NCBI RefSeq assembly: GCF_018598185.1
Contig: NZ_JAHESC010000021.1
Location: 1-64,000, forward strand
Length of the DNA: 64,000 bases
From: Dawidia soli
GTDB lineage: Bacteria > Bacteroidota > Bacteroidia > Cytophagales > Cyclobacteriaceae
Direction: 5' to 3'
Made by a program: the position numbers and the translations under genes
Shown: piece after piece, positions 1,491-44,179 of the stretch
Numbering within the stretch: the first letter of the stretch is position 1
How the letters are laid out: each line of letters starts with the position of its first letter
The notes under the pieces: generated by a model
Database searches by the model: none
The model's input: only the letters and a program-made list of their open reading frames with translations
What the model was told of the DNA's origin: nothing

Positions 1491-2254
1491 TGGGCTTTTT
1501 GGGTGCTGGGCGTAGCTCTTACGGGAGATTCATTGATAAACAGGAGGTTATCGCCCTGGATGGTGAGGGAGAAGTCGTAGTCCAGGAGGGCTTTGAAAAC
1601 GGCGTGGGAACAGCCGTGCTTCATGCGGTCGTGCAGCTCGATGATGAGGCAGCGGGTGTAGGGCAGCCAGGTGTCATAGTTTTCGCTGAAGACCTCTTTT
1701 TCGCTGCCTTCGATGTCGAGCTTGAGGATGTCGATCTGGGTGATGTTGTGGGCTTGGAGCAGGTCGGAGAGGGATTGGGCCTCCAGCACGGTGCCGGTGG
1801 CGTTCTTTTCGATCATGAAGCCGCGGTCGCCATAGCCTTTGTCCACGACGTGGATCTGCTCTTTTTTATGCCAGATCGCGCTCTTTACGGGCGTGATCCG
1901 GGGGTAGGGGCGCACGTTGTCGGACAGGACGGCGAAGTTGTTCTCGTCGGGCTCTACGCTGATGATGCGGGCGTTGGGATAGCGGTTGGCAAAGAAGATG
2001 CTGGTCAGGCCGATGTTGGCGCCGCCGTCGATGATGACCTGGGGCTGCAGCGTTTTGGGGAGCGGCAGATCGTACAGGCGACGCAGAAAGATCTCGCGAA
2101 AGGAGATGCCGTCGGCGCGCTGCGGGCGCAGCCGGAAGGGATGTTTAATGCCCGGCAGCGAGACGCTGCGGGTCATGCGGGTCCGGACCTTCCAGTAGAT
2201 GATAAGGCCGCGCCAGCCGAAGGCTGTGAGGCAGTTGATCAGTAATCCGAACAT
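1472..2254 (-). CDS. FkbM family methyltransferase
   Basis: A 260-residue SAM-dependent methyltransferase. The SAM-binding motif I is DGGANIGLTSIFFAN (about residues 75-89), the acidic loop ISVEPD follows, and LDIEGSEKEVF is the FkbM-typical motif. Such enzymes O-methylate sugars or polyketides and in Bacteroidota are common in surface polysaccharide loci. The ATG at 2252-2254 was chosen because residues after it (MFGLLINCLTAFGWRG) fit a natural N-terminus; the frame stays open upstream to 2392. It is divergent from a glycosyltransferase at 2446, supporting a role in glycan decoration (inference). Its last codons come from the 11-bp repeat array. Confidence 0.8.
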   Translation of the reverse strand: MFGLLINCLTAFGWRGLIIYWKVRTRMTRSVSLPGIKHPFRLRPQRADGISFREIFLRRLYDLPLPKTLQPQVIIDGGANIGLTSIFFANRYPNARIISVEPDENNFAVLSDNVRPYPRITPVKSAIWHKKEQIHVVDKGYGDRGFMIEKNATGTVLEAQSLSDLLQAHNITQIDILKLDIEGSEKEVFSENYDTWLPYTRCLIIELHDRMKHGCSHAVFKALLDYDFSLTIQGDNLLFINESPVRATPSTQKAHLTATI

Positions 2255-2445
2255 AACGTCGTTGTTTTTATCGGCCACTCTAAACGCGCGTGCGGAATGT
2301 TGCACCCGTATTTTTACTTTTGCCGGAAACCGGTGCTGCAGGGTTTGCCTGGCTGCTTTGGCTGGAACAAAGAAAAGCATTTTGTAGCCCATTCGTAAAC
2401 TTAGGCGGCATTATCATAACCCTAATACGGTCAAACGTAAACTTT

Positions 2446-3576
2446 GTGAAGAGCAGATCGGCTGAACAGGAAAAAAGACCCATCGTGATGCTGGCCAACG
2501 GCCATCCTCCTTTTGATACCCGGATCTTTATAAAAGAAGCGCGGTCGCTGGTGCAGGCCGGCTACACCGTGTCGATGATCCTGCCGCACACGCAGGACAC
2601 CGAAAAAGACGGCGTGCACCTGTATGCGGTAAAGCCGCTCGGAGGTGGATTCGATAAGCTCTTTGTCAGCCCGTGGCGCATCCTGGGCAAAGCCCTGAAG
2701 CAACCTGCCCGGTCGGTGTTCTGTATCCACGACTCCGACATCCTGGGGGTGGGACTGATCCTTAAATTGTTCGGGCGCAAGGTGGTATACGATGCGCACG
2801 AAGATACTCCACTGCAGATCAGCTATCAGCATTGGTTGCCCCGCTGGCTGCGCGGGCCGTATGCGATGTTCTATTACCTGCTCGAGAAGATCTGCGGCTG
2901 GTCGTTCGATGCGATCATCGTAGCAGAGCCGGTCATTGCGCAATACTTTCCGAAACGTAAGACTTACCTGGTGCGCAACTTTCCCCTGGCGCATGCTTTT
3001 CGTACGCATGTGCCGGTGCCCTATGCTACCCGGCCCCAGGCATTAACGTCGGTAGGTACGCTGAGCAAGGTGCGGGGGCTGATCGAGATGCTGGAGGGCG
3101 CGCGGCTCGCAGCACCGCGTGCATCGTTCGAGTTTGTGCTGGGCGGTAAGTTTGCCCCGGCGTCGTTGCAGGAAGAGGTGCTGAAGAAGTATACGGTACG
3201 CTTTCTGGAGTGGCTCTCGTTTGATGCGATGGTAGAGGTGTTGTTCGCTTCGCGCGTCGGGATCATCATTCCCAATCCTATCGAACGCTATAAAACGAAC
3301 TATCCGGTAAAGATGTTTGAGTTCATGGCGGCGGGCTTGCCGGTGATCGCGTCGTCGGCAGGAGAGTCCGCGGCGTTTATCAAAGAAGCTGACGCGGGTA
3401 TCCTCGTCGATCCGCTCAATGTGCAGGAAGTGGCGGATGCCATTGTCTGGCTGTTCACGCATCCGGCAGAAGCCGAGGCGATGGGGCAACGCGGTCAGGC
3501 GCTGATCTTCAACAAATATCATTGGGAGAAGGAGAACGAGACGTTGCTGACGGTATACCGCAGCATTCCCGCGTAG
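2446..3576 (+). CDS. Glycosyltransferase, GT4/GT-B type
   Basis: A 376-residue GT-B glycosyltransferase that would transfer a sugar from a nucleotide donor to a surface glycan precursor in the cytoplasm. The N-terminal domain begins MLANGHPPFDTRIF, a motif typical of group-1 transferases. DAHEDTP occurs in the linker region. The donor-binding C-terminal domain carries MFEFMAAGLPVIASSAGE and DAGILVDP, the conserved nucleotide-sugar site. Start choice is uncertain: GTG 2446 gives a compact protein, ATG 2488 is possible, and the frame remains open upstream to 2290, where it would add an unconvincing 52 residues. Neighbouring FkbM methyltransferase supports a glycan-assembly role, but the acceptor cannot be told. 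Confidence 0.8.
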   Translation: MKSRSAEQEKRPIVMLANGHPPFDTRIFIKEARSLVQAGYTVSMILPHTQDTEKDGVHLYAVKPLGGGFDKLFVSPWRILGKALKQPARSVFCIHDSDILGVGLILKLFGRKVVYDAHEDTPLQISYQHWLPRWLRGPYAMFYYLLEKICGWSFDAIIVAEPVIAQYFPKRKTYLVRNFPLAHAFRTHVPVPYATRPQALTSVGTLSKVRGLIEMLEGARLAAPRASFEFVLGGKFAPASLQEEVLKKYTVRFLEWLSFDAMVEVLFASRVGIIIPNPIERYKTNYPVKMFEFMAAGLPVIASSAGESAAFIKEADAGILVDPLNVQEVADAIVWLFTHPAEAEAMGQRGQALIFNKYHWEKENETLLTVYRSIPA

Positions 3577-3619
3577 GCATAGCCCTGGCGTTACACTATG
3601 CGAAGCGGCCGGCCTGAGA

Positions 3620-4228
3620 TCAGGCAGGCTTGATTCGGTCGGGGTTCTCTTTTAGAAAGGACTCCCAGGAGCTGGCGGCACGGCGTGGTTTTGTCTGGGG
3701 GCGTTGGGCCGAGGCGCTTCCGGCGGTGAGCTCGGCTTTGCCGGCTTGAAAATGATGGCATACCGCGACGGCCAGCGCATCGGTGGCGTCCAGCAGTTTG
3801 GGGAGTTCCTGGATGGCAAACAGGCTCATGAGCATTTTAGCGACTTGCTCTTTGGACGCATTACCGTTGCCGGTCACCGATTGTTTGATCTTGCGGGGTG
3901 CATATTCGGCAATGGGAATGGACCGCGACAACGCGGCGGCCATCGCAACGCCCTGCGCACGGCCGAGCTTGAGCATGGACTGCACGTTCTTGCCGAAGAA
4001 GGGGGCCTCGAGGGCGACCTCGTCGGGGTTGTATTCGTCGATGAGGCCCGACACGCGCTCGAAGATCTTCTGGAGCTTGAGGGCGTGGTCGTTGTATTTG
4101 CTCAGGTGGATGACGCCGAACTGGATGAGCTCGACTTTGGGGCGGCGCACGGCGACCAGGCCATATCCCATAACGGTAGTGCCGGGGTCGACACCCAAAA
4201 TGACCTTGTCGGTGATAATATTTCCCAC
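3620..4228 (-). CDS. ruvC: Crossover junction endodeoxyribonuclease RuvC
   Basis: 202 residues with the RuvC fold. RuvC cuts Holliday junctions symmetrically during recombinational repair, working with RuvAB. Catalytic acids are visible: Asp14 in GVDPGTT, Glu74 in [11 protein letters not shown], and Asp147/Asp150 in [15 protein letters not shown]. The C-terminal 40 residues (from about 165) are low-complexity and basic, longer than in the usual protein of about 170-190 residues. The gene stands alone between two glycosyltransferase genes rather than beside ruvAB. It is divergent from the gene at 4272 with a 43-bp gap. Confidence 0.95.
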
Positions 4229-35414: not shown

Positions 35415-37178
35415 ATGAACTTTTGGAAAAGCCTGTTGGCCGCCTTTCTGGCGCTCGTCATTTTCTCGTTTTTGTCGTTTATTCTTTTTATCGCCGTACT
35501 GGCCGGTTTGTCGGGTGGTGACGAGGTCGTTATTCATCCCCATACCGTGCTGCACCTCAAGCTCGATGCAGAGATCACGGAAAAAGAATATAGCAACCCG
35601 CTGGCCGGTGTACCGATCGTGGGGCAGGCTGACGTGCCCCGGATCGGCCTGATCGAATTAAAGGAGACTATCCGCCACGCGCAGGAGGATGATAACATAC
35701 AAGGCATTTATCTCGACATCAGCCATCCCCGCGCCGGGTTCTCGTCACTGGAAGAGATACGGCAGTCGTTGCTCGAGTTCCGCGAAAGCGGCAAGTGGGT
35801 GGTTGCCTATACCGAGACCATGACGGAAGGAGCGTATTACCTGGCGTCTGCGGCCGACAAGATATACCTTAATCCGGAAGGGGAGATCGAGTTCAACGGC
35901 CTGACGGTAGAGATCATGTTTTTCAAGAAGCTGTTTGATAAACTGGAAATACGCCCCGAGATCTTCCGTGTGGGCGCATTCAAAAGTGCTGTCGAGCCGT
36001 TCATTCTCGAGAAGATGAGTCCCGAGAACAAACTACAGCTGACGGAGCTGATGAACTCGGTATATGGCCATATGCTGAACCGCATGGCGGATGCACGTCA
36101 CATGCCAGTAGCGCGTCTGAAAGAGATCTCCGATAAAATGTTAGTGCGCAATGCAACGCTGGCCCGTGAGCTTGGCCTGGTGGACAGCTTGTTATACCGC
36201 GACCAGTTCCGTGACCATCTTAAAACACGTCTGGGTTTGGGCGCAAGTGATTCGGTAACATTTGTGAAGTACAGCAAATACCGCCGCAGCTTCTCTGATT
36301 ATAAAAAAGCTTCGCACGAGATCGCAGTGATCGTTGCCGACGGTTCCATCATGCCGGGAAAAGCGGAGGCAGAACAACGCATCATTGGCGCGGATACCTT
36401 TGTCGAGGCCATTCGCCGTGCCCGCGAAGACGATGATGTAAAAGCTATCGTGCTGCGCATTAATTCACCCGGCGGCGAGTTCCGCGCATCGGATATGATG
36501 TGGCGTGAAATCACATTGGCCCGTGCGCAGAAACCGGTTATCGCTTCCATGTCGGACTATGCGGCATCGGGTGGTTATTATCTGGCGATGGCCTGCGACA
36601 CCATTGTAGCACAACCACATACTATTACCGGTTCCATCGGTATCTTCGGAATGATGTTCGACATGAGCCAGTTCCTGTCAAATAAAGTGGGCATCACCTT
36701 TGACGAGGTGCGTACGGGCGAGTTTGGCGACATGTATACCTTGTCACGGCCGCTGACGGAGGCCGAACGCAACTTCTGGCAAACCAACCTGAATGATCAC
36801 TACGCTTCGTTTACACGCAAGGCGGCCGAGGGTCGGAACATGCCTGTGGCGGAAATTGAGAAAGTAGCTTCCGGCCGCGTGTGGTCCGGCGCGCAGGCCC
36901 TCGATCATAAGCTCGTGGACGTACTGGGCGGCTTTGACGATGCTATTCACATCGCTGCTGCCAAGGCGGGTATCGCTGCAGACTACAAGCTTCGTTATTA
37001 CCCGGAACAGGAGCTGAGCGTCTTCGAGCAATTGATGTCGCAATGGGAAGAAGACGCCCGTGCCGAAGCGCTGAAGGCCGAGCTGGGCGATCTGTACGGC
37101 TGGTATCAGCAAGTACACAACCTTAAAAGCTATCAGGGCGTACAGGCGCGCATGCCGTTTGAACTTCGCCTTCACTAA
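35415..37178 (+). CDS. sppA: Signal peptide peptidase SppA, 67K type
   Basis: 587 residues, the long double-domain form. An N-terminal membrane anchor (about 5-35) is followed by two ClpP-like halves. The catalytic Lys is in RVGAFKSAVEPF of the first half and the nucleophile Ser in SDYAASGGYYLAMACD of the second. It degrades cleaved signal peptides in the inner membrane. TAATTTCG upstream (near 35391) resembles a -7 box. Signal-peptide remnants of the lipopeptide genes at 39113-39612 could in principle be its substrates (inference). Confidence 0.95.
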   Translation: MNFWKSLLAAFLALVIFSFLSFILFIAVLAGLSGGDEVVIHPHTVLHLKLDAEITEKEYSNPLAGVPIVGQADVPRIGLIELKETIRHAQEDDNIQGIYLDISHPRAGFSSLEEIRQSLLEFRESGKWVVAYTETMTEGAYYLASAADKIYLNPEGEIEFNGLTVEIMFFKKLFDKLEIRPEIFRVGAFKSAVEPFILEKMSPENKLQLTELMNSVYGHMLNRMADARHMPVARLKEISDKMLVRNATLARELGLVDSLLYRDQFRDHLKTRLGLGASDSVTFVKYSKYRRSFSDYKKASHEIAVIVADGSIMPGKAEAEQRIIGADTFVEAIRRAREDDDVKAIVLRINSPGGEFRASDMMWREITLARAQKPVIASMSDYAASGGYYLAMACDTIVAQPHTITGSIGIFGMMFDMSQFLSNKVGITFDEVRTGEFGDMYTLSRPLTEAERNFWQTNLNDHYASFTRKAAEGRNMPVAEIEKVASGRVWSGAQALDHKLVDVLGGFDDAIHIAAAKAGIAADYKLRYYPEQELSVFEQLMSQWEEDARAEALKAELGDLYGWYQQVHNLKSYQGVQARMPFELRLH

Positions 37179-37218: not shown

Positions 37219-38187
37219 ATGACGATACGCAATAACTGGACGCGGGAAGAGATCGCCGCCATTTACAACAAGCCCGTACTCGACCTGATGTACGAAGCGG
37301 CGACAGTGCACCGGCAGTATCACCAGGCCGGCGAGGTGCAAGTGTGTACACTGCTGTCGGTAAAGACCGGTGGCTGTCCGGAAGATTGTGCCTACTGCCC
37401 GCAGGCGGCCCGGTATAACACCGGCGTGACGGCGCACAAGCTCATGGAAGTGGGCGAAGTATTGCAGAAAGCCGTAGAGGCCAGGGAAGCCGGCAGCACA
37501 CGTTTTTGTATGGGCGCTGCGTGGCGTGAGGTGCGCGACAACCGCGACTTTGACAAGGTCATCGAAATGGTGAAGGGTGTGAATACCCTGGGCCTGGAAG
37601 TGTGCTGTACGCTGGGAATGCTCAGCCCGGAGCAGGCACAGAAGCTGAAGGATGCCGGGTTGTATGCCTACAACCACAACCTCGATACAAGCGAGAACTT
37701 CTACGACGACATCATCACCACGCGCACATACCAGGACCGCCTCGACACACTTGAGAACGTCCGCAAGGCAAACATCTCGGTTTGCTCAGGGGGTATCATC
37801 GGCATGGGTGAAGGCGAAGAAGATCGCATCGGCATGCTCCATACGCTTGCCACATTGCCGCAGCACCCAGAATCGGTGCCGGTCAACGCGCTGGTGCCCG
37901 TAGAGGGCACACCGCTGGAAGATCAACCGAAAGTGTCTGTGTGGGAGATGGTACGGATGATCGCCACCGCACGGATCATCATGCCGCATGCCATGGTGCG
38001 CCTGTCGGCCGGCCGTGTGCGTATGAACCTGGAAGAGCAAGCGCTTTGCTTTATGGCCGGTGCCAACAGCATCTTTGCGGGTGACAAGTTGCTGACCACG
38101 CCGAACCCGGGCTATATCAAAGATCAGGAAATGTTTCAGATGCTTCAGTTACGGCCGCGTCAGGCGTACAAGGAGCAGCTGGTATAA
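37219..38187 (+). CDS. bioB: Biotin synthase
   Basis: 322 residues. BioB inserts sulfur into dethiobiotin with radical SAM chemistry. The iron-sulfur motif is CPEDCAYC (CxxxCxxC, about residues 52-59), and conserved segments [48 protein letters not shown] and RLSAGR hold the second cluster ligands and substrate contacts. Own promoter and strong terminator indicate a single-gene unit. Confidence 0.97.
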
Positions 38188-38213
38188 ACCGGTAGGTCTA
38201 CCCGCCGTTAATC

Positions 38214-38260
38214 ACGCGGGAGGCTAGTTCTACGGAACCGGCCTCCCGCGTTTTCTTTTT
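38214..38260 (+). terminator. Terminator after bioB
   Basis: ACGCGGGAGGC (38214-38224) pairs with GCCTCCCGCGT (38241-38251), with a small inner stem in the loop, followed by TTTCTTTTT. It lies 27 bp past the stop codon. Confidence 0.92.
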
Positions 38261-38852
38261 ACAACGCTACGGGCACCGGTCGGGCCTGACAAGGGCTTTT
38301 TTCAGGCTGCGCACGTCTGACGGCGATTCCGGCAGCTTGCCGGCAACTGTGGCAAAAACTCCCCACAATGCTCGCCGAATGCACTGATTTACGCTTAAAA
38401 TCTGGAGATGTGTTGTTTCCCTGCAAAATTTCCGGTTACCAAAACAACCCCGCTGGATAGGGTGAAAACAGGGATTATTGAGCGTTAAAAAGACACTAAA
38501 ACCATTGTAATATTACGATTTAGTCATGTAATAAATGGCCTGTTTTTTACAAAAGACGGTGTTAAAGTATTAGTTTAAGTATCTCCTATTACACGGATGC
38601 CCGGCTGGTTGGTTGCCGAAAAAAGAAAAAATAAGTGACCGGAGTCCTGAAAAGGGCCGGATAGGGAGGATGAATTCAAAAAGGTGGAACCAGATATCGA
38701 CGGAAAATGCAGGAGATGGCGGGAATGCCGGTTAGATAGCGACCAACGGATCAGCGGGCATTCACCTCTTCACGAGTCCTTCAGGAGGCTCAGCAAAGGG
38801 GTGAATGCGGGCTGAGACAATAGCGTAGCTTGGGGGTTGCTGGAATACAGAT
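38261..38852. other. Non-coding stretch of about 590 bp with structured DNA
   Basis: No credible gene is seen on either strand. The left half is A/T-richer and includes GTAATATTACGATTTAGTC and AGTTTAAGTATC, possible promoter-like sequence. The right half contains an imperfect hairpin at 38758-38808. A 21-codon frame at 38670-38735 (MNSKRWNQ...) after GGGAGG is too short to call. No match to the common structured RNAs I can recognise. Confidence 0.6.
38758..38808. other. Extended imperfect hairpin
   Basis: GCATTCACC (38758-38766) pairs with GGTGAATGC (38800-38808). The pairing continues inward through TCTT/AAGG with one G-U, and the apex GAG-TCC-TTCA-GGA-GG-CTC forms a second stem with a 2-nt bulge. 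The whole resembles an RNA domain or a palindromic repeat element. No poly-T follows. Confidence 0.45.
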
Positions 38853-38901
38853 AGGCATAACGGATATGGATTTTAAGCGCTTAAAACCCATTAGTATGCC
38901 T
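38853..38901. other. Long imperfect inverted repeat over the end of the 57-residue gene
   Basis: The centre TTTTAAGCGCTTAAAA (38871-38886) is a perfect 16-bp palindrome. Flanks ATGG/CCAT-type pairs and the outer arms AGGCATA (38853-38859) and TATGCCT (38895-38901) extend it to 49 bp with interruptions. It overlaps the stop codon of the minus-strand small gene, so it could be a terminator or a mRNA-stabilising stem. Confidence 0.5.
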
Positions 38902-39064
38902 GGTCTTCCATTGCAAAGCCGCCTGCGGGAGCTAAGCCAGCAGCTCTTGTGTGCGTTTCGGTTTTGACAGTCTGAGGGGCTTCCTTGCCGCGCACAGTCA
39001 CGAAGGTGAAAGAAAGGGTAATAACAGCTGAAACGGCGAGGAGGATTATAATTTTAGTTTTCAT
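38891..39064 (-). CDS. Small exported or membrane-anchored peptide, 57 residues
   Basis: ATG 39062-39064 to TAA, 57 residues. A hydrophobic segment (KIIILLAVSAVITLSFTF, about 4-21) serves as signal or anchor, followed by a short hydrophilic part. It has no Cys, so is not a lipoprotein. Its tail AGGFAMEDQAY aligns with the GGGRGSADGPY tail of the three upstream lipopeptides: Gly2, Gly3, Asp8 and the final Tyr coincide. It is the last of four small genes in one direction, 48 bp after the third. I do not recognise the family. Confidence 0.6.
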   Translation of the reverse strand: MKTKIIILLAVSAVITLSFTFVTVRGKEAPQTVKTETHTRAAGLAPAGGFAMEDQAY

Positions 39065-39112
39065 AGTGTTGATAATCAAAATATTGAGGACTGTTTTAAA
39101 GATAGGGGTGGG

Positions 39113-39247
39113 CTAGTACGGGCCGTCTGCCGATCCGCGGCCGCCACCATTGAGGCCCTGCTGGGGTGTTACTTCGTCTTCGGTGCAGGCGGTGATGGTT
39201 ACGCTTGAAACCAGGGCAAAAAGGAGGATATAGATGATTTTTTTCAT
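39113..39247 (-). CDS. 44-residue lipopeptide, tandem copy A
   Basis: ATG 39245-39247 to TAG, 45 codons. N-terminus MKK, hydrophobic core IIYILLFALVSSV, then the lipobox ITAC with Cys21. After processing, 24 residues remain: CTEDEVTPQQGLN followed by the tail GGGRGSADGPY. The acids right after the lipidated Cys fit the Bacteroidota surface-export signal. It differs from copy B at five positions only (Ile/Val7, Ala/Ser11, Val/Leu16, Leu/Phe32 and nearby), and both proteins keep exactly the same length, which indicates purifying selection. I know no described family with this tail. Confidence 0.75.
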   Translation of the reverse strand: MKKIIYILLFALVSSVTITACTEDEVTPQQGLNGGGRGSADGPY

Positions 39248-39296
39248 GGGAGTAGATCGTTTGGGTATAGGTTCAATAGGGTTGTTTAAGGGGGGA

Positions 39297-39431
39297 TTAG
39301 TAGGGGCCGTCTGCCGATCCGCGACCGCCGCCGTTAAAGCCCTGCTGGGGTGTTACTTCGTCTTCGGTGCAGGCGGTGATGGTCAGGCTTGAAACCAGCG
39401 AGAAAAGGAGTACGTAGATAATTTTTTTCAT
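39297..39431 (-). CDS. 44-residue lipopeptide, tandem copy B
   Basis: ATG 39429-39431 to TAA, 45 codons. MKKIIYVLLFSLVSSLTITAC is the signal with lipobox ITAC; mature residues are CTEDEVTPQQGFN plus GGGRGSADGPY. The DNA of copies A and B stays alike, with mostly silent or conservative changes, over the whole gene, and the spacers (49 and 46 bp) are poorly conserved. This suggests an old tandem duplication with the peptide kept under selection. Position: second of the four-gene run, counted in the transcribed direction. Confidence 0.75.
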   Translation of the reverse strand: MKKIIYVLLFSLVSSLTITACTEDEVTPQQGFNGGGRGSADGPY

Positions 39432-39477
39432 AGGGATAATTCGTTTAGAAATAGGTCAGTAGGTTTACTTTAGGGGA

Positions 39478-39612
39478 TTAGTACGGGCCATCAGCCGATC
39501 CACGGCCCCCACCGTTGTCGTCGCAAGCCGGTGTGATCTCTTCTTCGGTACAGGCTGAAATGGCCATGCTTGAAACGAAGGCAAACAACAGTATATAAAT
39601 GGCTTTTCTCAT
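39478..39612 (-). CDS. 44-residue lipopeptide, tandem copy C
   Basis: ATG 39610-39612 to TAA, 45 codons. The most divergent copy: MRKAIYILLFAFVSSMAI then lipobox ISAC, mature start CTEEEITPACDDN and the same tail GGGRGSADGPY. The middle carries an additional Cys (CTEEEITPAC), so the mature form could make a disulfide or dimer. All changes are in the signal and middle part, none in the final 11 residues. It is the first gene in the transcribed direction, facing the divergent histidine kinase across about 210-260 bp. Confidence 0.75.
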   Translation of the reverse strand: MRKAIYILLFAFVSSMAISACTEEEITPACDDNGGGRGSADGPY

Positions 39613-39824
39613 AGTAGGTAGTTTTAGATATGTTCGATAATAGTTTCCTTTTGTTCAGCCCGGGAGACCCTGATTTATGCGGCGGTCGCTTGCGAGACCG
39701 TAGCGTCTGTGTGGCGGGGTCGCCGACCATGCAAGAAGCCGTGTGTGGCAGGCTACTTTTTCATGAGTTTGTCGGGTTTATGTTTTTGTAATAGGTTTAT
39801 TAGAATTAAATTGATACCTCAAAA
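39613..39824. promoter_or_regulatory. Divergent regulatory region between lipopeptide genes and histidine kinase
   Basis: About 210 bp without a gene. TTTG at 39785-39788 and TAAATTGA at 39807-39814, 18 bp apart, resemble the -33 and -7 elements for the kinase gene. For the lipopeptide genes no good -7 match is visible on the minus strand. The middle includes GCGGCGGTCGCTTGCGAGACCG and GGCGGGGTCGCCGACC, GC-rich sequence with partial dyad symmetry that could bind a regulator. Confidence 0.4.
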
Positions 39825-39875
39825 TTGGCTGGTTTAGTTGAAACTTTTCCCGTATTAAAATTTGTAACCGCACCC

Positions 39876-42026
39876 GTGTACCTAAATTTTTTAAACTTTC
39901 GTAAGCTAGCCGCCATTGTTCTTCTTCTGATTGTAGCGGGAAATGTGAGTGGACAAGAGCAACGATCAACGACGATCGACTCGCTGAAAAATCTGTTACC
40001 GGGCAAGAGTGATAGTGAGAAATTTAATATACTATTCGACTTGTCTCGTGCGCTTATCCTGGACTCACGGCAGCGTGAAGCGTTGTCGTATGCGACAGAG
40101 GCTGCGCGCATCGGCTGGGACCAGGGTGACAGCCTTCGCATCATCAAAGCCACGATGCTCGAAGCTTCGGCGCTGCGGCGCCTGGAGCGACTCGACGAAG
40201 CACTGAAGAAGTCGGAGCAGGTGCTGGGCATCGCCCGCAGAAACGGCTATGCTGCCGAGAATAAGATCCTGCTAAACTCCATTGCCCTGATATATACCTT
40301 GAAGGCGGATTACGGAAAGGCACTGGAGTATAATTTCGAGACGCTCATCGCGCGTGAGAAGGACGGCGTCAAAAGCGAGATCAGCATTGCGCTCAACAAC
40401 ATTGGCCTGGTGTATTTCAAGATGAGGCACTATTCGAAGGCAATTGAGTTTTATACCAAGGCATTGAATCTCAAGCGTGAATCCAACGACACGTACGATC
40501 TCGACCGGCTTCTCATCAATCTCGGCTTGTGTTATAACCAGATAGCGGGCGCAGACGCCGACGATTTTAACCAGGCGCAAAAATACATCAGCGAGGCGTT
40601 AAAGACCTGTGCCGACAATTGCAGCCCCAGCATCCTCATCGAAGCTCATTTTGGATTAGGAGTGTCCAACATTCATTTGGGTGAGCTTAGCGAGGCTCGC
40701 CGGCATTTTGAACGCTCGCTGGAAATCGCCCGACAGGACAACGACAAACGCTTTCAGTGCGAAAACATGGTGTACCTGGGGCAGGTAGCGCGCGAAGAGA
40801 ACGATATCAAGGGTGCAGAGCTGTATCTGCGACGCGCCGAAGCGCTCTCTTCCGAATTGGGATATGGCCAGCTGCTCATGGATACCTACAGACAATTTGC
40901 GGTGCTGTATACGAGCAGGAACGATTTTCAGAATGCGTCTTTTTACCAGTCCCGATACATTCAGTTGAAAGACAGCGTCATCAGCGAAGAGCTCGTCAAG
41001 AACGTGGCCAAGATCCAGACCGATTACGAGGAGCGCGAGAACATCAGTATCATTGCCGCAAAGGAGCAGGTCATCAAACAACAAAGCGACCTCAACTTCG
41101 CCATTGCCATCATCGCCATGCTGGCCGGTATGCTGGTGTTGGTGCTTCAGCGAAGCAACCGTACCATTAAGCGTGTCAACGCCCAGCTCTCGGAGGCGAA
41201 GGAAACCATTCAGGCGCAGAACGAGCTGCTGGAGAGTAAAAATAAATACCTCGACAAAGAGGTGGAGGCCAAGACCATCGATCTCGAGCGTGCCAACCAG
41301 TCGCTGAAACAGGTGAACGACGAGCTCGATAATTTCATTTACAAGACCTCGCACGACATTCGCGGGCCGCTGGCCAGTCTCAAAGGTATGTGCAACGTAG
41401 CGCTGCTGGATGTAAAAGATCCTGTGGCGCTCGACTACCTGCGCAAGCTTGACACGACGGCGGAGCGGCTCAACACTATCCTGACGCGGTTGTTGATCAT
41501 CAACCAGATCAACAACTCAAAGTTGTCGATCAGCCAGGTCGACTTCGAGTCGATCGTCAACGACGTGCTCATGCTGGAAAAGAAAAAGGGACTGCCACAA
41601 AAGCTGGTGATCCGCAAGCAGATCGACGAGCGTGCCGTGATCCGCTCCGACCGCGAGCTGATCCGCATTGTATTGGAAAACCTGATCGACAACGCCATCA
41701 AATTTTACAACGAGGCAGCCACTGTCGAGTCGTTTGTGGAGATATATATCCTGCCCATGGACAAAGGGTATGTAAAGATGCGCGTGGTGGACAATGGGAT
41801 CGGCATCAGTGAAGAAAATCCCGGCAAGCTGTTCCGGATGTTCTTCCGGGCGTCCGAGCGTTCGGAGACGGGGGGCATCGGCTTGTACATTGTGAAAACG
41901 GCTACCGCCAAGCTCGGAGGCAGGGTAGGGTTGCAAACGACACCAGAGGGATACACAGAGTTCTACGTGATCTTCCCGGCCTATCCGCCCAATCTGGACG
42001 AAGGCATTGAAAAGCCGTCGATCTGA
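39876..42026 (+). CDS. Sensor histidine kinase with periplasmic TPR domain
   Basis: About 716 residues from GTG 39876; no ATG is available, and TTG 39825 is another possible start. A signal sequence ([19 protein letters not shown]) is followed by TPR repeats (about 40-390, e.g. [33 protein letters not shown]). One membrane helix (about 405-427) and a coiled coil lead to the HisKA domain with SHDIRGPL (His about 491), and to the HATPase with [18 protein letters not shown] and [10 protein letters not shown]. There is no receiver or regulator gene beside it. TPR domains commonly bind peptides, so the small divergent genes may be ligands (inference). Confidence 0.88.
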
Positions 42027-42079
42027 TACCCCCTCCGGGAATTTTTTTACGTCCTTTACTATTATCATCTTTGCACGCC

Positions 42080-44179
42080 ATGAGTCAATTCAAACGTCAT
42101 ACCATCACGGCCGCGTTGCCTTACGCAAACGGCCCCCTTCATATCGGCCATATTGCCGGCGCCTACCTGCCGGCCGACACCTACGTGCGCTACCTGCGCC
42201 TGCGGGGTGAAGACGTGGTCTTTATCTGTGGTTCTGACGAGCACGGCGTGGCGATTACCCTCGGCGCCAAGAAAGAAGGGGTGTCACCGCGTGTCTTTGT
42301 CGACAAGTACCACCACCTGATGAAAAAGGCGTTTGAAGACTTCGGTATAGGCTTTGACATATACTCCCGCACGTCCAACCCGGTGCATTATGAGACCGCC
42401 CAGGAGTTCTTCAAGAAGATCTATGACCAGAACCTCTTCATCGAAGAGACCTCCGACCAATACTATGACGAGCAGGAAGGGATCTTCCTGGCCGACCGCT
42501 ACATCATCGGTACCTGTCCGAACTGCGGCAATCCGAACGCCTACGGCGATCAGTGCGAAAAATGCGGTACGAGCCTTAGTCCGCGCCAGCTGATCAATCC
42601 ACGCTCTACGGTGTCGGGCAATACACCGGTGCTGAAGCCGACGCGGCACTGGTACTTCCCGCTGGACAAGTTTGAAAACTGGCTGCGCGAGTGGCTCGTG
42701 GAAGGCCATCAGGACTGGAAGACCAACGTGTACGGGCAGTGCAAGTCGTGGCTCGACCAGGGGCTGCAGCCGCGGTCCATTACACGCGATCTGGAGTGGG
42801 GGATCCCGGTGCCGCTGCCCGATGCCAAAGGGAAAGTGCTGTATGTGTGGTTCGATGCCCCCATCGGCTATATATCGGCGACCAAAGAATTAAAGCCTAA
42901 CGATTGGGAAAAATACTGGAAGGATCCTGAAACCCGCCTGATCCACTTCATTGGAAAGGACAACATCGTGTTTCACTGCATTATCTTCCCCTCGATGCTG
43001 AAGGCCGCGGGCGACTTTATTTTGCCCGACAACGTACCGGCTAATGAGTTCCTGAACCTGGAGGGCGAGAAGCTGTCAACCTCGCGTAATCACGCGGTAT
43101 GGTTGCATGAATATCTGCTCGACTTCCCCGGTCGTCGCGACGAGCTGCGGTATGTGCTCACGTCGATATCACCCGAGACGAAGGACGCTGATTTTACGTG
43201 GAAGGATTATCAGCAAAAGGTCGACAGCGAGATGGTGTCGATCCTGGGTAACTTCGTAAACCGCGTGATGGTGCTGACAGGTAAATACTTCGACGGCAAG
43301 GTGCCGGCCGAACAAGAGCTGCCGGGTACGGACGACCGTCGCAAGAAAATAGTCGCTCACTACCACCAGGCGCATAACGACCTGAACCAGGCTGTAAAAG
43401 AAATGGCTGCCTGCCTGAAAGATTTCCGCTTCCGCGAGGCACAGTTCCAGATGATGAACCTGGCGCGCATCGGCAATAAATTCCTGGCGGACACCGAGCC
43501 CTGGAAGTTGGCAAAAGAGGATATGGAGGCCGTTGCGGCCATCCTGAACTATGCCCTGACGATCGTCGGCAACATTGGCCTGGCGTGCGAGCCGTTCCTG
43601 CCGGACGGTGCCGCGTCGATTCGCCGTCAGCTCAACAGCGACCTGTTTGACACCGCGCGCAAGCAGTTCTGGCAGAAGGAAGAACTGGTACACGTCGTGC
43701 GCCAGGGGGCGGCCTTAGGCACGCCGGAGCTGATGTATAAGAAGGTAGAGGATGCCGACATCGAAAAACAAATGGAGCGCCTGCGCAAGACGCCGGCAGT
43801 CGCACCAGAAGGAGCCGGTGCCGCTGCCGTGACGGCGACGAAGCCCCTTAAACCCGAGATCGCCTTTGACGACTTTGCCAAGCTCGACATTCGCATCGGC
43901 GAAGTGGTAGCGGCTGAAAAAATGGAGAAGTCCGATAAGTTGCTCAAGCTTACCGTGGACGATGGCCTGGGCCGTCGCACGATCCTGAGCGGCATAGCCA
44001 AACACTACAGCGCTGAAGAAATGGTCGGCCGGCAGGTGACGTTTATCGCGAACCTGGCCCCGCGTAAAATGATGGGTACCGAGTCGCAGGGCATGATCCT
44101 GATGGCCGAGGACAATGACGGCAAGCTGCGTCTGATCCGCCCCACCGAGGACGTGGCGCCTGGCTCTACCGTGAGCTAG
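42080..44179 (+). CDS. metG: Methionyl-tRNA synthetase with C-terminal tRNA-binding domain
   Basis: 699 residues. It attaches methionine to tRNA-Met. The HIGH motif is [13 protein letters not shown] at about 17-29, zinc ligands [18 protein letters not shown] near 150-167, and the KMSKS equivalent reads KLSTS in [15 protein letters not shown]-terminal EMAP/OB-fold domain (about 595-699, [31 protein letters not shown]) strengthens tRNA binding. ATG 42080 fits the family start [18 protein letters not shown]. Confidence 0.97.

Follow-up and report, generated by a model that had tools for sequence, protein, structure and literature searches.

In Dawidia soli, three tandem genes for predicted lipopeptides (lp1, lp2 and lp3) and a fourth small gene (p57) lie beside a gene for a TPR sensor histidine kinase, and we put at about even chances the reading that the lp and p57 peptides are tiny membrane-tethered, self-encoded ligands of this kinase. 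The genes lie in a window of 64,000 nucleotides, the whole stretch of contig NZ_JAHESC010000021.1 (assembly GCF_018598185.1) that was analyzed. The gene set, its conservation, the selection on the peptide tails and the statistical co-variation described below were obtained directly. A first-pass annotation of the window had guessed at signals or surface ligands; a ligand is also the role favored by the sequence comparisons, but the reader that we propose, the adjacent kinase, was absent from that annotation. Its further guess, a substrate of a sorting or modification system, gained no support in our comparisons. The kinase and p57, neither of which it mentioned, are the best clue to function.

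Three tandem genes encode predicted lipopeptide precursors

The three lp genes are on the minus strand at positions 39478 to 39612 (lp1), 39297 to 39431 (lp2) and 39113 to 39247 (lp3), and each is an open reading frame of 45 codons (44 residues plus a stop), as first described. All three also have the lipobox Cys noted earlier, at residue 21 after a lipoprotein-type signal, and the acidic mature start, which reads CTEEE in lp1 and CTEDE in lp2 and lp3. Lipidation at Cys21 is predicted and would leave mature peptides of about 24 residues, namely CTEEEITPACDDNGGGRGSADGPY for lp1, CTEDEVTPQQGFNGGGRGSADGPY for lp2 and CTEDEVTPQQGLNGGGRGSADGPY for lp3; we agree with the first-pass annotation that these are too small for enzymes. 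The last 11 residues had been given as the same in the three peptides; the shared end was confirmed, but the identical stretch is 12 residues long, NGGGRGSADGPY. The array is not a chance occurrence, because homologs of the same size and layout are present in relatives (genome G002 has a counterpart of lp1, and lp2 and lp3 likewise have homologs) and because the tail differences among the three copies are synonymous only.

Among 136 distinct lp sequences, the residue preceding the Cys is S, A or G in all 136, as expected of lipoproteins processed by SPase II. Pro occupies position +8 in 133/136, and two or three acidic residues lie at +2 to +6 in 133/136, with one in the other 3. In these sequences, the part of lp that is constant across species is the start of the mature peptide. 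The LES export signal of Bacteroidetes, which consists of a polar residue followed by acidic residues right after the Cys, was assayed in Capnocytophaga using sequences from Bacteroides and Flavobacterium (PMC5080379). The lp sequences have the same arrangement, a polar residue and then acidic residues at +2 to +6, and with this acidic start lp may reach the surface.

The view that the peptides belong to no known family held up: lp1 to lp3 had no Pfam match at E ≤ 0.1, and neither did p57, while the best NCBIfam match of the four had an E value of 0.026, below the cut-off. Their best PHROGs match was 0.0021, over residues 1 to 29. PADLOC returned nothing for lp3 and p57, the two of the four that were scanned there.

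Tails are conserved within arrays and diverge between species

We compared the copies within tandem arrays codon by codon. Over the last nine codons of the window array (L034), the three copy pairs sum to 10 synonymous and 0 nonsynonymous differences. Tails with synonymous but no amino acid differences were found in 17/24 tandem arrays; one array had no tail differences, and six were counted as having some (L035, L099, L101, L104, L110 and L132), although the L132 tails are identical as protein and were counted as differing only through multistep codon paths. Over all arrays, the signal had a pN/pS of 0.40, against 0.18 in the last nine residues and 0.10 between the Cys and +8. The proposal that selection acts on the tail is therefore borne out within arrays. 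Gene conversion or very recent copying is unlikely as the cause of the identical tails in those 17 arrays, given their synonymous differences.

The tails had also been called invariant while signals and middles differ, and this is correct for the array of the window genome but not across species, where the tail diverges. Species have lp tails such as DGPY, DPK, DKGF, SERI and PIKEG, among others, and the copies within one genome usually agree. We rejected the idea of the tail as a universal motif on this variation between species. Broken frames or unconserved tails at homologous loci had been named as evidence against the genes; frames were intact in the units compared, except at L146, and tails were conserved within genomes but not between species. 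At L146 (7361 to 8224, minus strand, genome G370), four lp repeats and p57 run together in one frame of 287 residues, which could reflect assembly indels or a real fusion.

A second small peptide and a TPR sensor kinase adjoin the array

Directly downstream of lp3, and part of the lp set, is the fourth small gene, p57 (38891 to 39064, minus strand), an open reading frame of 57 residues with a counterpart after lp in most relatives. The start is an ATG; a TTG at 39079 could instead begin a longer frame. The peptide lacks a lipobox, carries a hydrophobic segment at its N terminus and ends in GGFAMEDQAY; in 11/99 sequences, an AxA-type site occurs close to where the hydrophobic stretch ends. It is probably a membrane-anchored peptide.

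On the other side of the array, a divergent intergenic region (39613 to 39824) separates lp1 from the kinase ORF. No sigma-70-like site was found in this region, simple promoter and terminator scans at the locus gave no more matches than chance, and a Bacteroidetes-type promoter pattern matched four times in the window and never at the lp locus. The kinase ORF (39825 to 42026, plus strand) encodes 733 residues with Pfam TPR_12, HisKA and HATPase_c matches; the real start is perhaps the GTG at 39876, judging from the consensus start of homologs. From its hydrophobic segments and an AF2 model, the protein has a hydrophobic N terminus, a TPR superhelix at about residues 60 to 385, a transmembrane segment at about 423 to 441, and then the HisKA and HATPase domains. 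A simple scan detected the N-terminal hydrophobic segment in only 68/96 kinases, so placing the TPRs in the periplasm is an inference. Sensor residues 262 and 266 form a CxxxC that is invariant in 24/24 aligned kinases and is perhaps a periplasmic disulfide. The best NCBIfam match of the kinase is FimS of Porphyromonas (E value of 2.6e-42, 144.9 bits), a score far below the model cut-off of 600 bits, so the kinase was not filed there. No response regulator lies between the kinase and its immediate neighbors, lp and metG.

Flanking genes were compared at loci with enough flank. The methionyl-tRNA synthetase gene metG (42071 to 44179, plus strand) is conserved as a neighbor in 63/64 loci and the biotin synthase gene bioB (37219 to 38187, plus strand) in 28/66, while sppA, encoding an S49 signal peptide peptidase (35415 to 37178, plus strand), lies beyond p57 in 58/66 loci and is absent in the other 8/66. 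A peptidase gene of this type would suit a diffusible pheromone, a tail cut from lp (and p57) that leaves the cell and is sensed by the kinase of neighboring cells; arrays with identical tails would then raise the dose, and species-specific tails would serve as private channels. That idea also fits the tandem arrays in which identical tails go with diverged signals, and the variation of tails by species. We nonetheless regard the pheromone, with its dose and private-channel corollaries, as improbable: lp has a predicted lipid anchor, SppA is missing from those eight loci, and a Gly pair does not strictly precede the tail in p57 of the Fulvivirga type.

The cassette was found in one family and is tied to the kinase

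A search with lp2 gave matches at E ≤ 1 in 36/59 relatives; many of the weak matches fall within long frames, probably as signal peptides of larger proteins, and clear matches came from the six other genomes of the genus and from G021, G023 and G030 of the family, by which we mean Cyclobacteriaceae in the wide sense. An lp profile at E ≤ 0.01 matched 277/390 family genomes, many of the matches being weak. Among 390 genomes sampled from the order Cytophagales, every match better than 1e-8 belonged to the family; no clear member was found outside it in these 390 genomes, matches there having E values of 7e-8 or worse, and the weak ones, among the matches listed, were in open frames of 86 to 504 residues. 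Named relatives include Parachryseolinea, Pseudochryseolinea, Ohtaekwangia, Chryseolinea, Chryseosolibacter, Chryseotalea and Fulvivirga, along with many MAGs labelled Cyclobacteriaceae or Flammeovirgaceae.

For comparisons across genomes, we used a set of 72 lp/p57 units from 68 genomes. Eight loci had been excluded in advance: five whose matches were distant or false (L044 to L047 and L049), one with p57 past the contig end (L128), the run-together frame (L146) and a stub (L152). One to five lp copies were present in 48, 11, 6, 5 and 2 units, respectively. In 71/72 units, the first lp and the kinase ORF are no more than 324 bp apart, and the 72nd is at a contig end; the distances are absolute and taken from mechanical starts, with a median of 107 bp.

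Retrieval by the kinase alone avoids selecting on lp, and the best 80 of 187 matches gave 79 distinct loci, many of them from the same genomes as the 72-unit set. At these 79 best loci, lp is divergently upstream in 76, and p57 was recognized in 70; the three without lp have 0, 297 and 327 bases of upstream contig. A further 40 regions came mostly from kinase-positive genomes in which lp was weak or not yet examined, some genomes being repeated. Among the 39 of these with a kinase (L318 has none), 33 have lp, two of them in distant forms (L283 and L296), five do not (L282, L284, L294, L319 and L320), and one more is cut by the contig end; p57 was recognized in 26. A kinase match at E ≤ 1e-120 was present in 107/380 family genomes. 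The genetic tie to a kinase that is expected of a small regulator was thus found at these loci, with exceptions, and the pairing of lp/p57 with the kinase is well supported.

Several loci depart from the usual layout. In genus g85, more distant lp-like peptides lie beside more distant TPR kinases (L283, 2969 to 3145, plus strand, with a charged repeat RRGEDIRG; L296, 1 to 149, minus strand). Two p57 genes rather than one follow lp at L297, L298, L300, L301 and L302 (Fulvivirga type). Four or five tandem kinase-profile ORFs of about 150 to 530 residues, with no lp matches between them, lie beside the cassette at L043 (10130 to 18235), L112 (9681 to 14552) and L134 (2282 to 7015).

Second kinases carry lp genes of their own

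At L114, L126, L137 and L151, a second kinase of the same type has its own lp and p57, with tails unlike those of the first pair. The window genome has a second lp on contig C39 (L234, 4166 to 4381, minus strand), CTEELVRPNNEDKPIVIPPPKP, with the tail IPPPKP; it is immediately upstream of another TPR kinase (2195 to 4165, minus strand) on the same strand, in operon order, and no p57 match was found beside it. The same-strand arrangement also occurs in G002 (L235), G001 (L236) and G004 (L044). The kinase profile has 117 matches in the window genome, though most of those examined are without lp: at 15 other kinase loci, in 14 of which the match reaches the TPR part (L251 being the exception), there was no lp match at E ≤ 0.01.

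These second pairings bear on the view that lp and p57 are no more than small surface lipoproteins or peptides active on membranes, of a type I toxin-like or structural sort, placed beside the kinase by old synteny alone. The block SppA-bioB-lp-kinase-metG is indeed widely conserved, and tiny hydrophobic tandem genes are similar in size to toxin arrays. That view is very unlikely, however, in light of the lp-kinase pair elsewhere in the same genome in operon order, the paralogous kinases with their own lp and p57, the strong constraint on mature lp and the lack of any Rfam match at 38000 to 40500.

Peptide tails track the TPR sensor

In the AF2 model of the kinase, the sensor consists of eight helical hairpins (residues 60 to 385, pLDDT mostly about 90; overall pTM of 0.50), followed by a helix over the predicted transmembrane segment and by the kinase domains. 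In structure, the modelled sensor is best matched by LGN/Pins TPR domains that were solved together with peptides (TM-score of at most 0.77, by target length), and LGN/Pins is matched by sequence too (GPSM2, E value of 2e-10). As modelled, the sensor resembles peptide-binding TPR superhelices.

We correlated distances between 9-residue tails with distances between sensors in 62 units with an adjacent metG (53 units for the SppA comparison). With kinase-domain and metG distances removed, the correlation with the sensor was 0.375 for lp tails and 0.471 for p57 tails (permutation p = 0.001 for both). With the sensor removed, the values for lp and p57 tails were −0.04 and −0.07 for metG, 0.01 and −0.15 for the kinase domain, and 0.05 and 0.02 for SppA. 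Within the sensor, groove-lining positions, in a register based on TPR numbering, associate with the tails more than other sensor helix positions do (p = 0.0010 for lp and 0.0007 for p57), and also more than other positions of the same helices (p = 0.0003 and 0.042). Both peptides favored the true TPR register over six shifted ones, p57 by a narrow margin.

Other stretches served as controls. The lp signal, the p57 N terminus and p57 positions −14 to −10 also correlated with the sensor (r = 0.224, 0.389 and 0.364) and showed smaller groove effects (p = 0.011, 0.017 and 0.026), and the kinase transmembrane segment and linker track the tails as well (r = 0.12 to 0.21; 0.18 and 0.21 given the kinase domain and metG). 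Since these other segments show such tracking too, part of the tail-sensor signal may be residual phylogeny. The tails track the TPR sensor better than they track the kinase domain or metG, and the other peptide segments do so more weakly.

Tails of lp and p57 tend to change together

The two kinds of tail often resemble each other within a genome. In the window genome, lp DGPY occurs with p57 EDQAY; Parachryseolinea has DGPF or DDAF with ADQAF, and other pairs are FERI with LERI, SDRL with SETRL and, in G134, TKDDGTF with VKEDASF. The match exceeded that obtained by shuffling within genera (p of about 1e-4), in a test that ignores relatedness. We therefore also drew phylogenetically independent pairs on the kinase tree. 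For the last five residues, a first set had 18 positive and 2 negative pairs, with 15 ties (p = 2e-4). Enlargement to 97 units, drawn from 92 genomes and yielding 48 independent pairs, gave 20 positive, 8 negative and 20 ties (sign test p = 0.018, Wilcoxon p = 0.0005), which weakened the sign test from 18:2 to 20:8. Sign tests gave 13:5, 17:5 and 18:7 for the last 2, 3 and 4 residues (p = 0.048, 0.008 and 0.022) and 19:13 and 21:10 for the last 6 and 8 (p = 0.19 and 0.035). None of five control comparisons of other stretches was significant (best p = 0.076). On these comparisons, change in the lp tail tends to be accompanied by change in the p57 tail.

The match is not general, since Cys-rich lp tails (GGPGCK type) are unlike those of their p57. 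Lp tails of the CQFGGPGCK type occur with p57 ends such as DRNQFD at L184, L199, L308, L114, L126, L137 and L151. Gene conversion between lp and p57 is an unlikely source of the resemblance, as matched residues often differ in codon (nine loci).

A divergent shared upstream region, such as that between lp1 and the kinase, is what would be expected if lp and p57 were outputs, that is, envelope peptides under two-component control by the kinase that make no direct contact with its sensor. Tight linkage would then need no binding, and the tracking of the sensor by other peptide segments is also in keeping with such a role. We consider it unlikely, because the tails follow the sensor more closely than the kinase domain and have their strongest association with the groove register, because the co-variation of lp and p57 tails suggests a common reader, and because the lp and kinase of the second window-genome locus are on one strand and not divergent. 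Tails acting as ligands of the TPR groove would be the best single explanation of the selection on tails, the lp-p57 co-variation and the tracking of the sensor.

Discussion

On the tethered-ligand reading that we favor, lipidation of lp at Cys21 would give a lipopeptide of 24 residues that starts with an acidic stretch like an export signal, continues through a Gly-rich hinge and ends in a free C-terminal tail. The N-terminal hydrophobic segment of p57 would anchor this peptide so that its tail lies on the outer face of the inner membrane. The two tails would be read in the groove of the periplasmic TPR superhelix and would set the phosphorylation state of the kinase, which would thereby report the amount or location of the peptides (the state of lipoprotein export, or peptide from neighbors). 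We infer the sign of this effect and its output, as we do lipidation, location and binding. A more specific proposal, which we consider unlikely, is a two-peptide switch in which the similar lp and p57 tails compete for one TPR groove and the kinase measures the location of lp; an lp destined for the outer membrane or surface could be retained at the inner membrane, be exported or come from a neighbor. Under such a switch, every species and every kinase paralog would use a matched tail code of its own, amounting to a peptide-kinase code in Bacteroidota.

To our knowledge, peptide signaling has hardly been described in Bacteroidota. Among the open PMC texts listed, titles and abstract openings contained no description of the lp/p57/kinase cassette, and the lp gene family is apparently not yet described. 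Very small, easily missed genes are here tied to one kinase lineage in 92 genomes, and the tail is short enough to be synthesized as a 9-mer, so that this class of sensor kinases becomes directly testable for a ligand.

Several known systems invite comparison. Pheromone systems of the Agr/Com type also have a small self-encoded peptide beside a kinase that varies between species. The present cassette differs in its predicted lipid anchor, its two peptides with related tails and its Gram-negative Bacteroidota host, and no exporter was identified among the neighbor families tracked. In RRNPP receptors, a TPR domain reads peptide pheromones, but these receptors are cytoplasmic regulators, whereas the TPRs here are fused to a transmembrane histidine kinase and are probably periplasmic. 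NlpE and RcsF act by a lipoprotein-to-kinase mechanism and are both larger folded proteins; the mature part of lp, in contrast, would have about 24 residues, and its gene adjoins that of its kinase. NlpE-CpxA and RcsF-Rcs are lipoprotein inputs to envelope-stress kinases (PMC6153362, PMC5651002), and in MgrB-PhoQ a small inner-membrane protein inhibits a sensor kinase (PMC8404706, PMC10576120). By description rather than sequence comparison, p57 is similar to MgrB in size and layout; unlike in MgrB-PhoQ, the gene is beside that of the kinase, arrays of the lipoprotein type accompany it, and a TPR superhelix serves as the sensor. By analogy, the tethered-ligand working that we favor would be close to that of MgrB-PhoQ and NlpE-CpxA.
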